A stretch of 64,000 bases of DNA. Origin: Streptomyces sp. NRRL F-525. Lineage in GTDB: Bacteria; Actinomycetota; Actinomycetes; Streptomycetales; Streptomycetaceae. Below are positions 10,028-17,453 of the stretch, one piece after another. The translations under genes were made by a program, and so were the position numbers. Location of the stretch: positions 248,001-312,000 of the forward strand of contig NZ_JNXE01000002.1 of the NCBI RefSeq assembly GCF_000716605.1, read 5' to 3'. The notes below the pieces were generated by a model that was not told where the DNA came from, made no database searches, and saw only the letters and a list, made by a program, of their open reading frames with translations. Numbering within the stretch: the first letter of the stretch is position 1; every line of letters begins with the position of its first letter.

Positions 10028-12373
10028 ATGCACAGCCCTCGCACGTCCCACATCCCCGACTCCTACGTCCGTGTCCGCGACGCCCGCGAGCACAATCTCC
10101 AGGGCGTCGACGTCGACATCCCGCGGGACGTGTTGACCGTGTTCACAGGCGTCTCCGGCTCCGGAAAGTCGTCCCTCGCCTTCGGCACGATCTACGCGGA
10201 GGCCCAGCGCCGCTACTTCGAGTCGGTGGCGCCGTACGCCCGCCGCCTGATCCACCAGGTGGGCGCGCCGAAGGTCGGCGAGATCACCGGCCTCCCCCCG
10301 GCGGTCTCCCTCCAGCAACGCCGCTCCACCCCCACCTCCCGCTCCTCGGTGGGCACGGTCACCAACCTCTCGAACTCCCTCCGGATGCTGTTCTCCCGCG
10401 CCGGCGACTACCCGCCCGGCGCGGAACACCTCGACTCGGACGCCTTCTCCCCCAACACGGCGGCGGGCGCGTGCCCCGAGTGCCACGGCCTGGGCCGGGT
10501 GCACCGCACGACGGAGGAGTCCCTGGTCCCCGACCCCTCCCTCTCGATCCGCGAGGGCGCGATCGCAGCGTGGCCGGGCGCCTGGCAGGGCAAGAACCTG
10601 CGCGACATCCTCGACACCCTCGGCTACGACGTGGACGTGCCGTGGCGCAACCTCCCCGCCGAGCAGCGGGAGTGGATCCTCTTCACGGACGAACAACCGG
10701 TGGTCACGGTCCACCCCGTCCGGGACGCGGACCGCATCCAACGCCCGTACCAGGGCACGTACATGAGCGCCCACCGCTACGTCATGAAGACGTTCGCGGA
10801 CACAAAAAGCCCGACCCTACGGGCGAAGGCGGAACGCTTCCTGACGAGCTCCCCCTGCCCGCTCTGCGGAGGCAGCAGACTGCGCCCCGAGTCCCTCGCG
10901 GTGACGATCGCGGGCCGCACGATCGCCGACCTGGCCGCGCTACCACTGGCGGAGCTGGCAGGCACACTCAACGGCACATCGGAGGCGGCCCGCGTCCTCA
11001 CCGAGGACCTCACCTCCCGCATCGCCCCGATCCTCGAACTCGGCCTCGGCTACCTCAGCCTGGACCGAGCGACCCCCACCCTCTCAGCAGGCGAGCTCCA
11101 ACGCCTGCGCCTGGCAACCCAGTTGAGGTCCGGCCTCTTCGGTGTCGTCTACGTCCTCGACGAACCGTCCGCCGGCCTGCACCCCGCGGACACCAAGGCC
11201 CTGCTCACGGTGCTGGACCGCCTGAAGGCCGCGGGCAACTCGGTGTTCGTGGTGGAGCACCACCTGGACGTCATGCGCGCCGCCGACTGGCTGGTGGACG
11301 TGGGCCCGCTGGCCGGTGAGCACGGCGGACGGGTACTGCACAGCGGGCCGGTGGCGGACCTCGCGGCGGTGGAGGCATCAGCGACGGCCCGTTTCCTCTT
11401 CGACGACTCCCGTACGCCGTCCCGCGAAGTCCGTTCACCGCGAGGCGAGTTGAAGGTGGGCCCGGTGACGCGGCACAACTTGCACGCCGTAACAGCCGAA
11501 TTCCCCCTGGGCGTGTTCACAGCGGTGACCGGCGTCTCAGGCTCAGGCAAGTCCACACTGATCGGCGAGATCACCGAGGAACTCCCGGGTGTTGGCCGCC
11601 TGGTATCGGTCGACCAGAAGCCGATCGGCCGCACTCCCCGCTCGAACCTGGCGACGTACACCGGCCTCTTCGACGTCGTCCGCAAGGTGTTCGCGTCGAC
11701 GGACGAGGCACGCCAACGGGGTTACGGCGTAGGCCGGTTCTCCTTCAACGTGACGGGCGGCCGCTGCGAGACCTGCCAGGGCGAGGGCTTCGTCAGCGTG
11801 GAGCTGCTCTTCCTCCCGAGCACCTACACCCCCTGCCCTGACTGCGGCGGGGCGCGCTACAACCCCGAGACACTCCAAGTGACGTACCGGGGACGGAACA
11901 TCGCGGAGGTCCTCGACCTGACGGTGGAGAGCGCGGCGGCCTTCTTCGCGGACACTCCGTCCGTGGCCCGCAGCCTGACCACACTCCTGGACGTGGGCCT
12001 CGGCTACCTCCATCTGGGCCAGCCCGCCACCGAGTTGTCCGGCGGCGAGGCCCAACGCATCAAACTGGCCACGGAGTTGCAGCGCGCCCACCGCACCCAC
12101 ACCCTCTACCTCCTCGACGAACCCACAACCGGCCTCCACCCGGCCGACGTAGAAGTCCTCCTCCGCCAACTCCACGCCCTGGTCGACACCGGCCACACCG
12201 TGGTGGTCGTCGAACACGACATGGCGGTGGTGGCAGGCGCGGACTGGGTGATCGACATGGGCCCGGGTGGAGGGGAAGAGGGCGGAAGGGTCGTGGCGGC
12301 AGGGCCGCCAGCAGAGGTGGCGGGGGCCAGCGGCAGCGCCACGGCCCCCTACCTGGCAAACGCCCTCGCGTGA
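10028..12373 (+). CDS. Compact UvrA-like ABC ATPase (UvrA2/DrrC-type)
   Basis: The 781-residue tandem ABC ATPase has Walker [11 protein letters not shown] and [10 protein letters not shown], and signatures [12 protein letters not shown] and [12 protein letters not shown]. Cysteine motifs [26 protein letters not shown] and CPDCGGARY are retained. At about 780 instead of 950 residues it lacks most of the UvrB-binding insert, as in UvrA2/DrrC-type proteins linked to tolerance of self-made DNA-binding drugs. It is probably not the housekeeping repair UvrA. CATAGACT about 10 bp ahead of the ATG suggests a leaderless transcript. Confidence 0.87.
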
Positions 12374-12385
12374 ACTCCCTTGTTC

Positions 12386-12426
12386 TTAAGGGGCGCGGGG
12401 AACTGCGCGACCAGCCCCCACCGGCC
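12386..12426. repeat. Streptomyces intergenic palindromic repeat, likely bidirectional terminator
   Basis: AGGGGCGCGGGGAACTGCGC followed by GACCAGCCCCC lies between the convergent ends of the UvrA-like and AlaRS-like genes. From memory this is the core of an intergenic element present in very many copies in Streptomyces genomes. It folds with outer GGGGC/GCCCC and inner CGCG/CGCG pairs. Only one copy was noticed in this window. Confidence 0.7.
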
Positions 12427-12439
12427 GACACCCGACCGA

Positions 12440-13570
12440 CTACCTCAGAAGCCCGGCAACCCATTCCCGGGGCAACCCATGAGTGTCATGAAGGTAGTGG
12501 TAGTCCTCCTCACTCAGAGGACCTCGAAACTCCGACCGAGACAACACCCGCCGCCCCCGCTCAAGGAGTTGACCAAACCGCCGCTCCTCATCAAGGAGCA
12601 CCTCCCGCTCGGTGCCGGTCCCGACAAGCTCCACCGGCAGATCAGACAACGTACGCGAGTCATCGTCCCGCCACAGAACCGTGAGCACCCGCCGAATCAA
12701 CCGCCGCACCACATACCCCCGCCCCGTGTTGGACGGCCGCACCCCTTCCCCGATGACGACCACGCTCGACCGCAGATGATCACAGACGACCCGCATATCG
12801 CGCTCGCCCAGAACCCACAGCATCGGAAGAATCCGCATCCACGGCTCAAACAGATCCGTCTCATACACCGACCGCCGCCCCTGAAGAACAGCCACCAGCC
12901 GCTCCAACCCCATCCCCGTATCAACGCTCACCTGCCGCAACGGAACCAGCCCCCCGTCCTCACCCCGTTCCAGCCGCATGTGCACGTGATTCCAGATCTC
13001 CACCCACCGCGAATCACTGATAGGGCTCCCCTCCGGCGACCCGCCCCCGGTCCAGTAGAAGATCTCCGAGTCAGGCCCACACGGCCCCACCGGCCCGTTG
13101 GACCACCAGTTCTCGTCCCGGGTCGACTCAACCGGCACCCCCAACTCCCGCCAGGTGTCCAGCGATTCAAGATCGGGCCCCACCTGTTCATCACCGCCGA
13201 AGACAGTGACGTACAACTTCTCGCGCGGGATACCGAACCCGTCCCGCAGCAGCTCGTACCCCCAACGCAGACTCTGCGGATGGCCGTAGTCGCCCAACGA
13301 CCATGACCCGAGCATCTCGAACACGGTGAGGTGGGTGAGGTCGCCGACCTCGTCGATATCCGTGGTGCGCAGACAGCGTTGGACGTTGACGAGCCGCCGC
13401 CCCTGCGGATGGGGACGGCCCAGGAGATACGGCGTGAGCGGATGCATGCCGGAGGTCGTGAAGAGGACCGGGTCCGACGGCGGCGGCAGCAGCGAGCTTC
13501 CGGTGATCGGCTCGTGCCCGCGTTCGCGGTAGAAGTCGAGGAACGTACGGACGATGTCGTCGGTGTTCAT
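12440..13570 (-). CDS. Alanyl-tRNA synthetase catalytic-core paralogue
   Basis: This 376-residue protein matches the first half of AlaRS: motif 1 region IVRTFLDFYRERGHEPITGS, motif 2 region LTVFEMLGSWSLGDYG, GPCGPDSEIFYW, motif 3 GMGLERLVAVLQG, the CDHLRS segment and GRGYVVRRLIRR of the tRNA-recognition domain. It ends near the HDTHGLP equivalent of YDTYGFP. The editing domain and the C-Ala domain are missing, against about 880 residues in full AlaRS. It may charge tRNA without editing, or supply activated alanine to another reaction. It lies downstream of the OlsB/OlsA pair and behind a putative attenuator. Confidence 0.85.
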   Translation of the reverse strand: MNTDDIVRTFLDFYRERGHEPITGSSLLPPPSDPVLFTTSGMHPLTPYLLGRPHPQGRRLVNVQRCLRTTDIDEVGDLTHLTVFEMLGSWSLGDYGHPQSLRWGYELLRDGFGIPREKLYVTVFGGDEQVGPDLESLDTWRELGVPVESTRDENWWSNGPVGPCGPDSEIFYWTGGGSPEGSPISDSRWVEIWNHVHMRLERGEDGGLVPLRQVSVDTGMGLERLVAVLQGRRSVYETDLFEPWMRILPMLWVLGERDMRVVCDHLRSSVVVIGEGVRPSNTGRGYVVRRLIRRVLTVLWRDDDSRTLSDLPVELVGTGTEREVLLDEERRFGQLLERGRRVLSRSEFRGPLSEEDYHYLHDTHGLPREWVAGLLR

Positions 13571-13649
13571 GGCGGTGAGCCCTTCGCGGGTCGGGAGGAG
13601 ACCGGAAGGGACCGCGCGGGAGGGCGGCGAGGGGGCTGGAAACGACACA

Positions 13650-13776
13650 CCCGGCGGTCCGTTTCCGGCCGCCGGGAGAGGTCAGTGAGGTTCAGGCGTC
13701 GGCGGCCGGCGAGCTGGTCGCTCGCGCGGTCGCGGTGGTGTGGGTGTGCCTGATGATCCTCATGGACGCAACGCTA
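13650..13776 (-). promoter_or_regulatory. Candidate ribosome-dependent attenuator: leaderless leader peptide plus competing hairpins
   Basis: On the minus strand a TAGCGT -10 box (13776-13771) stands seven bases ahead of an ATG (13763) opening a 23-codon reading frame rich in Thr (5) and Ala (6), ending at TGA (13694-13692). Four segments can pair alternately: GCGAGC/GCTCGC (13725-13720 with 13714-13709); CCGGCCGCCG inside the last codons (13709-13700) with CGGCGGCCGG (13674-13665), ten perfect pairs; and a terminator-like hairpin CCCGGCGG/CCGCCGGG (13676-13669 with 13657-13650) using the same arm. It lies just ahead of the AlaRS-like gene. The frame is also open from the acyltransferase gene, so it could instead be that protein's tail. 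Confidence 0.45.
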
Positions 13777-14627
13777 ACAGGACGCCTCCGCGCCGTCCTG
13801 CGGATTTTCACCGGGGTCTGTGCCACCGACGTGCAGTGGTCCTGGTGCTGGGGCTGAGCGGTCACCCCGGCCTGCGCCGCGTGGGCGAGGGAGCGGCGGT
13901 CGGGGTGACTGCCGGGGGCGATGGTCTCGCCCACCTCCACCTCGGCGACGAGCCCGCGCGTCGACACGACCCGCCACACCGAGGTGAGCAGGGAGTCGCT
14001 GCCGACGAAGGCGGGGGCGGTGCTGGCGGTGCCGTGGGTCAGGTAGTGCAGGCCGACCGGCTGGACGGGGACTCCGGCGTCGAGTGCGGCCTGGAAGACG
14101 GCCCGCCGGAAGTGTCCCTGGGCCCGGCCGCACCAGGTACTGCCCTCGGGGAAGACGGCGACCGCTCCGCCTGCGCGCAGGGCGCCCGCGATGGAGGCGA
14201 CCGTCTCGGGCAGGGCGCGCAGCCGGTCGCGGTCGATGAACAGGGCGCCGCTGCCCGCGGTGAGCGTGCCCGCGACGGGCCAGTGCCGGATCTCGGCCTT
14301 GGCCAGCATGCGGGCGGGGCGTACGGCGGCCAGCAGCGGGATGTCCAGCCACGATATGTGGTTGGCGACCAGCAGCAGTCCGCCGGTGGACGTGGTGGCG
14401 CCGGTGATGCGGAGCTGGATGCCGGCGGACCGGACGATCGTCCGGCACCACCAGCGCACCGCGCGGGCGGGGATCCGCTTGCCGACGGGGGTGAGCGCGG
14501 CCCCGGCGGCCACCACGACCAGGACGGTCACGAAGCGCAGCACGGCGCGCGGTACGGCCGTGACGGACCCCTTCGACTCGATGCACGCCCTGGGGGTGCA
14601 GGGCGCGCTGGGCAGCCAGACGCTCAT
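13692..14627 (-). CDS. PlsC/OlsA-like 1-acyl-glycerol-phosphate / lyso-ornithine-lipid acyltransferase
   Basis: This 311-residue membrane-associated acyltransferase has an N-terminal hydrophobic segment (RFVTVLVVVAAGAALTP), motif I NHISWLD (the HX4D catalytic pair), GALFIDRDR and VFPEGSTWCG (motif III). It transfers a fatty acyl group to a lysolipid. Being translationally coupled (TGATG) to an OlsB-type N-acyltransferase, it most likely acts as OlsA in ornithine-lipid synthesis. The last 70 or so residues (after LAHAAQAGVT) look unlike the family, are rich in Arg/Thr/His, and coincide with the possible promoter and leader peptide of the next gene. Confidence 0.85.
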   Translation of the reverse strand: MSVWLPSAPCTPRACIESKGSVTAVPRAVLRFVTVLVVVAAGAALTPVGKRIPARAVRWWCRTIVRSAGIQLRITGATTSTGGLLLVANHISWLDIPLLAAVRPARMLAKAEIRHWPVAGTLTAGSGALFIDRDRLRALPETVASIAGALRAGGAVAVFPEGSTWCGRAQGHFRRAVFQAALDAGVPVQPVGLHYLTHGTASTAPAFVGSDSLLTSVWRVVSTRGLVAEVEVGETIAPGSHPDRRSLAHAAQAGVTAQPQHQDHCTSVAQTPVKIRRTARRRPVSVASMRIIRHTHTTATARATSSPAADA

Positions 14628-15400
14628 CACGCCGGGACGAGCGAGAGGAAGTGCCGCAGATAGCGCGGGTTGACCCGGCGCATCGACAGCAGCACGTACA
14701 GGTCGGCGACCCCGAAGTCCGGGTCGTGGGCGGGCTCGCCGCAGACCCAGGCGCCGAGGCGGACGTATCCGCGCAGCAGCGGCGGGAGTTCGACGCGGCC
14801 GGCGGGACGGGTGACGCCGTCGGCGCTCCAGGGCAGCAGCGGGCGTACCCGGAACTCCTCCGGGGCGAGGTGCTTGGCGCTGACCCGGTCCCAGGTGCCG
14901 GCGGCGAGGGCGCCGCCGTCGGCGAGCGGGATGGAGCAGCAGCCGGCGAGCCACTCGTGGCCGCGGTCGACCATGTAGCGGGCTATGCCGGCCCAGATGA
15001 GGCCGATGACGGCGCCGTCGCGGTGGTCGGGGTGGACGCAGGAGCGGCCGACCTCGACGAGGCCCGGGCGGATCGAGTCGAGGGGGGCGAGGTCGAACTC
15101 GCTCTCCGAGTAGAGCCGTCCGGCGACCGCGGCGCGCTCGGGCGGCAGCAGCCGGTAGGTGCCGACCACCTGCCCGGTGACCGTGTCGCGGACGAGGAGG
15201 TGGTCGCAGTAGGCGTCGAAGGCGTCGACGTCCAGGCCGGGCTGCGGGCTGGACAGGTGGGCGCCCATCTCCCCGGCGAAAACGTCGTGCCGCAGCCGCT
15301 GCGCGGCACGCACATCGTCCTCGTCGCGGGTGAGCGTGACGGTGTAGCGGGTCGGCGCGGCGGGCTGCGAGGGACGGTCGAGGGTGGAAACGCCGGTCAT
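14627..15400 (-). CDS. OlsB-like GNAT acyltransferase (ornithine-ACP N-acyltransferase family)
   Basis: The 257-residue protein belongs to the OlsB/hemolysin-like GNAT group: YTVTLTRDEDDVRAAQRLRH, VFAGEMGAHL, DAFDAYCDHLLVRD, VGTYRLLPPE, and VEVGRSCVHPDHRDGAVIGL. OlsB attaches a 3-hydroxyacyl chain from ACP to the alpha-amino group of ornithine, giving lyso-ornithine lipid that OlsA then acylates. Gene order and coupling to the PlsC-type gene support this. I recall an equivalent pair in S. coelicolor beside sdh. The acceptor amino acid is inferred, not shown. Confidence 0.82.
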   Translation of the reverse strand: MTGVSTLDRPSQPAAPTRYTVTLTRDEDDVRAAQRLRHDVFAGEMGAHLSSPQPGLDVDAFDAYCDHLLVRDTVTGQVVGTYRLLPPERAAVAGRLYSESEFDLAPLDSIRPGLVEVGRSCVHPDHRDGAVIGLIWAGIARYMVDRGHEWLAGCCSIPLADGGALAAGTWDRVSAKHLAPEEFRVRPLLPWSADGVTRPAGRVELPPLLRGYVRLGAWVCGEPAHDPDFGVADLYVLLSMRRVNPRYLRHFLSLVPA

Positions 15401-15571
15401 GGCTCTCCCTGATCACGGGCCGGGGACGGCGGAGGAACAAGCTGGCCGGTTCCGTAAGTCCAGCCGCAACAGTTCTTCCTACGCCGGGCGTCCTGCGCGT
15501 GACCTGTGCCCGGAGCCGGGATGTGGGGTTGTTGAACGGCGTCCCCGCCCCCGGCGCTCAGCACCCGCCGT

Positions 15572-16597
15572 TCACTTCGGCGGGGCGCACCGCCCCAGCC
15601 GCTCCCCGGCCTCGTCGGCGCCGAGCACCCGCTCCAGCACCAGGTCACCCGTCATACCGGGGAAGAACCGGCCCGCGGGCCAGCCGCGTCTGTACGGCGC
15701 CGGGTCGAGGACCAGTACCCGTATGCCGTCAACGACCGGGATGTCGGTGGGAGTTCCCTCGTTCCACACCCATTCACCACTCGGGTTCACGAGGTTGAAG
15801 GCACCGGTGGTCGGCACCTGGCCCGGGGCGTCCCGGCACACCGCCGCCTCCTGCGCGGAGGGTGCCTGTCCGGGCACGTGTCCGCCGCCGATGAGGACGT
15901 CGGCGAGGAGGGTGTGCAGCTGGAAGTTGTCGCCGATGCCGGTCATCCGGAGCAGGTAGCCGGTGCCGGTGGGGCGGTGCAGGACGAGGAGGGGTTCGTC
16001 GTCGAGGACGACGAGGGCGTAGCGCAGGCACTTGAATTCGTGGCCGGACGCCTCCCGTATCTCGTGCAGGGCGCGCAGGAGTCCGAGGCGCACTTCGGGC
16101 GGGAGGGTGGTGCGCACCACGTGGTGGTTGAGCATGGCGTTGGAGGCCATCTCCCACTGCGGCAAGGTGATCCAGCCGACGGCGGCGTCCTGTCCGACCC
16201 GTTCGAGGGCGGCCTCGGTGAGGGCGGCCGGGTCGGGTTCGGGGAAGTCTCCGCCGCCGGTCGCCGCCCAGCGCTCGCAGAACTCCTGGGCGACACCGAC
16301 TGCTTCGACCAGCCCCTGGAAGATCTGCGGCGCGCAGCCGCCGGGGTCCGCGCCCCGCTCGACACAGGCGCCGACCAGTACGGCGACCAGCGCGCGGGGG
16401 CCGGGCGGCACCGTCGCCAGCAGTGCGGCCAGACGCGGGCCGACCTCGGCGAGGTCGGCGTCCCGCGCGTGCTCGAAGTGCCGTTGGACGTCCTGCATCG
16501 CCTGCTGCGCACGCTCGCCGTCCCCCTGACGAACAGCGGTCTCGAAGCCCGCCACCGCGTCGCGGAACCGCGTCCTCCCCTTGCCTGTGAAGATCAT
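15572..16597 (-). CDS. Conserved hypothetical protein
   Basis: No family recognised. The 341-residue soluble protein has no signal peptide or membrane segment. The N-terminal third is helical and charged (RFRDAVAGFETAVRQGDGER), the middle has WITLPQWEMASNAMLNHH, and the C-terminal half is beta-rich (LVVLDDEPLLVLHRPTGTGY, GDNFQLHTLLADVLIGG). It is a single gene on the minus strand between olsBA and sdhCAB and has a clean ATG. Codon use is typical of the region, so it is a real, resident gene of unknown role. Confidence 0.8.
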   Translation of the reverse strand: MIFTGKGRTRFRDAVAGFETAVRQGDGERAQQAMQDVQRHFEHARDADLAEVGPRLAALLATVPPGPRALVAVLVGACVERGADPGGCAPQIFQGLVEAVGVAQEFCERWAATGGGDFPEPDPAALTEAALERVGQDAAVGWITLPQWEMASNAMLNHHVVRTTLPPEVRLGLLRALHEIREASGHEFKCLRYALVVLDDEPLLVLHRPTGTGYLLRMTGIGDNFQLHTLLADVLIGGGHVPGQAPSAQEAAVCRDAPGQVPTTGAFNLVNPSGEWVWNEGTPTDIPVVDGIRVLVLDPAPYRRGWPAGRFFPGMTGDLVLERVLGADEAGERLGRCAPPK

Positions 16598-16627
16598 GTG
16601 GGCAGCCTACCGAGGGGCTCGGTGCCT

Positions 16628-16664
16628 GGCGGGACCGGGGATGAGCACCACCTCCGGTCCCGCC
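16628..16664 (-). terminator. Terminator of the sdhCAB operon
   Basis: Perfect 11-bp stem GGCGGGACCGG / CCGGTCCCGCC with a 15-nt loop, 44 bp beyond the sdhB stop. Streptomyces terminators commonly lack a U-run, as here. Confidence 0.7.
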
Positions 16665-16707
16665 CGTCCGCACCTTGTCGGCGAACGTTCTTGTGCTGTG
16701 GGCGAGT

Positions 16708-17453
16708 TCAGCGCTTGGCGGCCTTGCGGGTCGCCCGCAGCCACTCCTTGTTCATGCCGGTGATGGAGAACAGCGGGATGCCCTTCGGGCAGGCGGTGGC
16801 GCATTCGCCGGCGAGGGTGCAGCCGCCGAAGCCCTCCTCGTCCATCTGCGCGACCATGTCGAGGACGCGGGTCTCGCGCTCGGGTGCGCCCTGCGGGAGG
16901 ACGTTGAGGTGGTTGACCTTGGCGGAGGTGAACAGCATCGCCGCGCCGTTCGGGCACGCGGCGACGCACGCCCCGCAGCCGATGCACTCGGCGTGCTCGA
17001 AGGCGAAGTCTGCGTCCGGTTTGGGTACGGCGGTGGCGTGGGCCTCGGGGGCGGCGCCGGTCGGGGCGGTGATGTAGCCGCCCGCCTGAATGATCCGGTC
17101 GAAGGCCGAACGGTCCACCACCAGGTCCTTCACGACCGGGAAGGCGGAGGCACGCCACGGTTCGATGTCGATCGTGTCGCCGTCCTCGAAGGACCGCATG
17201 TGGAGTTGACAGGTGGTCGTGCGCTCCGGCCCGTGTGCGTCGCCGTTGATCACCAGGCTGCACGCACCGCAGATGCCCTCGCGGCAGTCGTGGTCGAAGG
17301 CGACCGGGTCCTCTCCCTTGAGGATGAGTTCCTCGTTTAGGGTGTCGAGCATCTCCAGGAACGACATGTCCGTGGAGATTCCGTCCACTTGGTAGGTGGA
17401 CATGGCGCCTTCGGCGTCGGCGTTCTTCTGCCGCCAGACGCGCAGGGTGAGCT

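Follow-up and report, generated by a model that had tools for sequence, protein, structure and literature searches.

A conserved leader-peptide attenuator, probably tuned to alanine, ahead of an almost alanine-free AlaRS-core paralogue in Streptomyces and its relatives

In Streptomyces, the aminoacyl-tRNA synthetase genes trpS and leuS are preceded by attenuators of the trp type, which, in the part of the attenuator survey available, consist of a leader open reading frame (ORF) with cognate codons, an antiterminator and a terminator located before the synthetase gene (PMC1262725). The terms alanine, alanyl and alaS are absent from the main text of that survey. A leader ahead of an alanyl-tRNA synthetase (AlaRS) gene is on record from the reannotation of Streptomyces lividans TK24, which lists alaL (SLIV_01313; MNVIGRNIFATARATSSPVAAA) before the 'alaS' gene SLIV_01315 and, in the accessible text, states this leader type to be previously undescribed (PMC8079986). 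The subject of the present analysis is a leader of the same type in a 64,000-nucleotide stretch of Streptomyces sp. NRRL F-525 (contig NZ_JNXE01000002.1, positions 248,001 to 312,000; the whole stretch is referred to as the window), where a leader-peptide attenuator, well supported by comparison of related sequences, is located ahead of a gene for an AlaRS paralogue reduced to the catalytic core. The arrangement resembles that of trpS and leuS, from which it differs, as far as those systems are described in the available part of PMC1262725, in that control is exerted over an auxiliary, core-only and alanine-poor paralogue. The element is probably a ribosome-mediated, alanine-tuned transcription attenuator that controls an emergency AlaRS core almost free of alanine.

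The record of alaL supersedes the statement, made in an earlier reading of the DNA from its letters alone (the sequence-only reading), that no described attenuator was known to it for this gene type. One of the loci compared here (L166) encodes a peptide identical to that of alaL (22 residues) ahead of an AlaRS-core gene, and SLIV_01315 is therefore very probably an AlaRS-core paralogue and not the housekeeping gene. The accessible portion of PMC8079986 calls the gene alaS and gives no comparative structure, core-only status or alanine content of the enzyme. A further counterpart is alaS2 (SCO7600) of S. coelicolor, likewise an AlaRS paralogue, which belongs to the WblC/WhiB7 regulon and depends on WblC and tetracycline, whereas alaS (SCO1501) does not; the same source, in the part available, gives GAAAWY as the WblC/WhiB7 promoter motif and ascribes to WblC itself an attenuator with an upstream ORF (uORF) (PMC7157823). 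A WblC box is also found in the window, and SCO7600 appears to be of the same gene type as the AlaRS-core paralogue encoded there. Neither a leader nor alanine depletion is mentioned for alaS2 in the available part of PMC7157823. Alanine depletion and comparative structure were not found in searches of an open-access library, outside of which most subscription papers lie. As far as this search extends, the attenuator was already recorded in one species, whereas the breadth of its conservation, the scheme of its pairings and the alanine-poor product are new.

The comparison covers 99 distinct loci from Streptomyces, Streptacidiphilus, Kribbella, Nocardia, Nonomuraea, Micromonospora, Occultella and others. 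AlaRS-core orthologues in 150 related genomes supplied 21 loci, and further loci came from the best 80 of 143 relatives in named bacterial genomes and from one broken copy located by pattern; the duplicates L061, L062 and L069, whose contigs are those of L003, L005 and L004, were removed. Alignment of these loci delimits a putative promoter, the leader, three competing helices, the placement of the Ala codons and a product with hardly any alanine, and the corresponding features of the window are as follows.

13804..13809, minus strand: GAAAAT, a box of the WblC/WhiB7 type (GAAAWY), 33 nucleotides (nt) 5' of the -10 box
13771..13776, minus strand: TAGCGT, the -10 box, 7 nt ahead of the leader ATG (comparison of loci)
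13692..13763, minus strand: alaL-type leader ORF, MRIIRHTHTTATARATSSPAADA-stop, 23 codons plus TGA, 5 Thr and 6 Ala
13727..13733, minus strand: outer part of region 1, GCGACCG, codons Ala-Thr-Ala, partner of region 2 (RNAalifold)
13710..13724, minus strand: CGAGC-N5-GCTCG, inner stem of the 1:2 helix (comparison)
13700..13709, minus strand: region 2, CCGGCCGCCG, partner of region 1 or region 3 (comparison)
13650..13676, minus strand: 3:4 hairpin, 27 bases, GAAA loop, terminator-like (covariation and folding)
13674-13665, minus strand: region 3; region 4 is the 3' arm of the hairpin and ends at 13650
12440..13570, minus strand: AlaRS-core paralogue (alaS2 type), 376 amino acids (aa), 2 alanines

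The TAGCGT box, the 23-codon leader with its five Thr and six Ala codons, CCGGCCGCCG and the hairpin are all present where the sequence-only reading had placed them. The 206-base attenuator region folds better than each of 200 dinucleotide shuffles (200/200; z -3.2).

A leader core with its stop, in frame and just 5' of the AlaRS-core gene, is found at all 99 distinct loci, whose upstream genes differ, and together with the covarying helices (see below) this upholds the earlier proposal of a leader-peptide attenuator ahead of the AlaRS-core paralogue. The leaders are 20-31 residues in length. With the invariant CGA codon numbered 0, Ala occupies codon -3 in 98/99 leaders and codons +1 and +7 in 99/99, while many other codons are variable. 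Codons -6 to +1 include 3-6 Ala codons in every leader, and in 19 of the 99 leaders they include no Thr. The sequence-only reading had expected stalling at Thr or Ala codons. The second part of this expectation is retained, since the conserved codon at the positions where stalling is predicted to be effective is that for alanine; threonine as the sensed amino acid is rejected because of the 19 leaders that lack it there. Upstream of the leader, a TANNNT sequence is found 12-15 nt 5' of an in-frame leader start at all 99 loci (13 nt in 78) when the distance may be 10-16 nt and the start any in-frame ATG or GTG within it, and this spacing appears to fit a leaderless transcript. The -10 box is known from this comparison, a generic sigma-70 promoter scan of 12300-15500 having returned nothing. 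GAAAWY is located 32-34 nt 5' of the -10 box in 52 of the loci, the window included, compared with a mean of 0.2 and a maximum of 2 in 200 base shuffles; the criterion for the WblC/WhiB7 regulon is a GAAAWY box at the promoter, and the window has one in GAAAAT.

The mutually exclusive 1:2, 2:3 and 3:4 pairings that the sequence-only reading had described are present and covary across the 99 loci. For the helices an alignment (A1) of 61 of the 97 distinct segments, with Streptomyces thinned, was used. Regions 2 and 3 are fully complementary in 70/99 loci and complementary at 9 of 10 positions in 26/99 (two rows are out of register), and in A1 97.2% of the cells of the 2:3 helix are paired and 17 are doubly changed (0/500 shuffles). 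The 1:2 helix between codons -3 to -1 and region 2 was drawn unprompted by RNAalifold; 98.2% of its cells are paired and 37 are doubly changed (0/500 shuffles), with pair types no more numerous than in shuffles. The small hairpin over the ten-base segment is confirmed as CGAGC/GCTCG at 13724-13710 on the minus strand, and the 1:2 pairing is larger than had been described, as GCGACCG (13733-13727) also pairs with CGGCCGC. Its GAGC/GCTC inner stem is paired in 60-61 of the 61 rows and, being nearly invariant around a variable loop, is uninformative as to covariation. At all 99 loci the 3:4 segment forms 8 or more pairs, with a median z of -3.1 over 92 loci, and the hairpin has 50 doubly changed cells in A1 and a covariation score above those of all 500 shuffles; its 6 doubly changed pairs are matched in number by 17/500 shuffles. 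Variation of the arms without covariation had been named beforehand as an observation that could overturn the proposal; the alignment displays covariation. One base tends to shift jointly in regions 1, 2 and 3, where it is G-C-G in 39 loci, A-T-A in 26, G-C-A in 15, A-C-G (the type of the window) in 9, G-T-A in 8 and others in 2. No match to Rfam was obtained at E <= 1 in 11000-17000, nor at gathering scores in the window, and a T-box riboswitch or other Rfam family is rejected for that reason.

The position of a translating ribosome would determine which of these helices forms. The footprint of a ribosome extends 13 nt past the first base of the A-site codon, and this edge was used in a fold model in which the nascent RNA ends at region 3. 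In the model, an A-site at any of codons -6 to +1 leads to the 2:3 helix in 98-99 of the 99 loci, an A-site at +2 does so in 22/99, and one at +3 or later in 0/99; with the A-site at -9 to -7 the 2:3 helix forms in 21-29 of 99. When no ribosome is present, 1:2 is predicted in 95/99 loci and 2:3 in 4/99.

The protein encoded downstream is as distinctive as the leader. The window AlaRS-core protein contains 2 Ala in 376 residues. Among the 96 intact proteins of the family (those of at least 340 aa, without L047, which is broken and has a read-through frame with 52 Ala; L004 and L100 are shorter than 340 aa), 29 contain no Ala, 60 contain at most 3, and the maximum is 20, and the copies at the loci later fetched with an RNA model (L165-L184) have 0-16 Ala in about 380-410 residues, where read. 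Nine canonical AlaRS cores have 27-38 Ala per 405 residues (7-9%). Among the 425 ORFs of 250 aa or more that the window and 77 loci supplied, the 70 with the least alanine are all located at the AlaRS-core gene, followed by one with 6.9%. The median alanine content of 357 background ORFs, which very likely still include the family copies L095 (398 aa, 4 Ala) and L100 and have a minimum of 0.8%, is 13.5%, and none of them falls to the family median of 0.5%. Of the 20 amino acids, alanine alone deviates strongly in this comparison. Lysine is also low in the family (median 0.26% vs 1.4% in the background), and 12/357 background ORFs are equally low. The class II AlaRS catalytic core and its motifs are present, the catalytic motifs being nearly invariant within the family, and the protein model has the AlaRS catalytic fold and covers the catalytic fragment of E. 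coli AlaRS (residues 2-413). The editing and C-terminal domains are missing, as the protein ends at about canonical position 400-413, and nearly all family members are 376-410 aa long, whereas the canonical AlaRS frames in the comparison have about 890-920 aa. In 8 pairs compared, third codon positions differ about 2- to 7-fold more than first and second positions, an excess which indicates that the AlaRS-core gene is under purifying selection.

Leader and AlaRS-core gene form an accessory unit of patchy distribution rather than a housekeeping one. With a covariance model of the element, a single place is found in each of 53/246 Streptomyces genomes and in each of 20/120 relatives, and an AlaRS-core gene is located downstream in 20/20 loci later fetched with the RNA model (L165-L184, of which L170 is the place of L006). 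A close orthologue of the AlaRS-core protein (E <= 1e-100) is found in 3/198 genomes of the phylum, that of the window included. At L004, L047 and L100 the AlaRS-core frame is interrupted or shortened, yet the leader and hairpin are intact.

Taken as a mechanism, these features suggest the following sequence of events. A promoter of the WblC/WhiB7 type would turn on the unit when translation is under stress. With an ample supply of charged Ala-tRNA, the ribosome would run on through the leader and cover region 2, the 3:4 hairpin would form and transcription would stop; when Ala-tRNA is short, the ribosome would wait at the Ala codons, regions 2 and 3 would pair and RNA polymerase would read on. 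The resulting AlaRS-core mRNA could be translated in the absence of Ala-tRNA because the enzyme hardly needs alanine, and the new enzyme would restore Ala-tRNA. A hairpin over the ribosome-binding site (see below) might provide a second control. Since ordinary AlaRS itself needs alanine, a cell that has no Ala-tRNA cannot make it. A self-starting rescue circuit, in which an AlaRS evolutionarily purged of alanine can be produced without charged Ala-tRNA, as in alanine shortage, under AlaRS inhibitors or with damaged tRNA-Ala, is somewhat favored as the role of the locus.

Several observations weigh against an alanine-tuned transcription attenuator and have to be set beside the evidence for it. 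With region 4 present, the equilibrium fold is that of the terminator in 79-92 of 99 loci even when the ribosome is placed at codons -6 to +1, and in the full RNA the antiterminator is favored in 19-31 of 99 for the same codons, so that the switch would have to act during transcription and the model needs co-transcriptional kinetics. A generic terminator scan of 12300-15500 reports no site at the hairpin, the T-run of the window is weak, and the run that follows the 3:4 hairpin is likewise poor in many Streptomyces. The covariation scores of the 1:2, 2:3 and 3:4 helices, each above all 500 shuffles, do not allow for relatedness; on trees that took in 98 and 97 of the 99 loci the compensatory changes have few independent origins, and sign tests, with 3-5 usable pairs each, are not significant, the expected direction on average exceeding the opposite one and many cases remaining unchanged. 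The window has an A.C mismatch in its 1:2 helix, a C.A mismatch occurs in the 2:3 helix of Kribbella, and an exact GAAAWY box is found in 0/13 Kribbella loci.

It is possible, if on the unlikely side, that the leader senses slowed translation in general, responding to drug-stalled ribosomes as the uORF of WblC does, and that alanine specificity is minor. The dependence of alaS2 on WblC and tetracycline in the accessible part of PMC7157823 and the WblC-type box in 52/99 promoters would be expected from such a sensor, and in the fold model a stall anywhere within codons -6 to +1 works. The retention of Ala at codons -3 (98/99) and +1 (99/99) while several neighboring codons vary argues for alanine, although this conservation may partly serve the stems and not the peptide. 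A general sensor also leaves the alanine-poor product unexplained.

Alternatively, control could be mainly translational, with a hairpin over the Shine-Dalgarno (SD) region as the switch and a 3:4 hairpin that is not a terminator. The feature concerned is the following.

13572..13615, minus strand: hairpin predicted over the Shine-Dalgarno region (GAAGGG, 13585-13580), from minimum free energy folds

Such an SD-covering hairpin likely exists between the attenuator and the gene start, as judged from folding. The segment 3' of the 3:4 hairpin, which contains TTCCGG in 72/99 loci and TCCGG in 91/99, can pair with the SD region, and over a set of 92 loci (7/99 are without an SD segment by regular expression, and 5 further loci were excluded as ill-placed) the hairpin has a median z of -2.1, and in 62/92 it pairs four or all of the 5 SD bases. 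When 36-48 leader bases are masked in folds of the window, the downstream pairing is also rearranged; pairing of region 4 with the downstream segment was computed only in these masked folds. These results and the weak T-runs of many Streptomyces speak for translational control. Against it stand an alignment (A2, made with MAFFT from 65 of 86 distinct segments) on which RNAalifold gives no consensus pairs for the SD hairpin, and the T-rich tails that follow the 3:4 hairpin in Kribbella, where 11/13 loci have 5 or more T among the ten bases that follow. On balance, translational control as the principal mode is unlikely. The window sequence at 13572-13615 is also similar to the complement of the 3:4 hairpin apex. 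Judged by eye, pairing between a region 5 and either the 3:4 apex or region 4 did not seem general, and no claim is made for it.

It is quite doubtful that the AlaRS-core protein no longer charges tRNA and instead makes Ala-AMP or has some other task, the attenuator then reporting alanine supply. The loss of the editing and C-terminal parts would be compatible with such a change of function, whereas the near-invariance of the catalytic motifs and the match of the protein model to the catalytic fragment of E. coli AlaRS argue for retained activity, and avoidance of alanine makes most sense for an enzyme that is needed once Ala-tRNA is gone.

The last alternative concerns the gene upstream of the leader.

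13692..14630, minus strand: PlsC-like acyltransferase ORF that runs on through the promoter and leader and ends at the leader stop

This acyltransferase is part of an ornithine-lipid-type gene pair. In the upstream stretches examined, which were mostly 1.5 or 5 kb, an acyltransferase gene is present at 20/99 loci. Its frame runs on in frame into the leader stop in 9/20 (the window, L001, L002, L004 and L050-L055 are cited), L078 is masked there, and in 8 of the other 9 loci with an intact acyltransferase the protein terminates at roughly one common earlier position (...HAALVA-stop or a close variant), that of L095 being longer. That the leader is a mere C-terminal tail of the acyltransferase, which the sequence-only reading had itself raised as one way in which it could fail and which the frames that enter the leader in 9 loci, the window among them, might suggest, is extremely improbable and is rejected, as 79/99 loci show no acyltransferase in the upstream stretch and the leader persists there, relatives of the acyltransferase elsewhere mostly end before the leader, and at L100 the leader is intact beside a broken acyltransferase frame. 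Because the acyltransferase of the window lacks a stop of its own, ribosomes that finish it could also cross the attenuator. On the other side of the AlaRS-core gene, a UvrA-like gene (10028-12373, plus strand) is convergent to it, both in the window and in L002.

A small sample of 23 loci with tryptophanyl-tRNA synthetase (TrpRS) paralogues was also inspected. Those with a candidate Trp-Trp leader (L155, L156, L158, L161 and L164) have 0-1 Trp in the last 337 residues. Most other TrpRS copies have 2 Trp, and L157, L162 and L163, which are without such a leader, have none.

Under the reading preferred here, an attenuator that responds to alanine and governs an emergency AlaRS, the locus resembles an evolved answer to loss of Ala-tRNA, in which an alanine-rich leader senses the shortage and then allows production of a synthetase that needs almost no alanine, and it yields simple predictions that can be tested in laboratory strains of Streptomyces. 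If true, nature would here provide an uncommonly clear example of a protein from which one amino acid has been purged for a purpose, and the locus would suggest how antibiotic producers may survive inhibition of AlaRS. Avoidance of the cognate residue may also be wider, and attenuator-controlled spare synthetases in actinobacteria may, if the reading holds, follow it as a rule.
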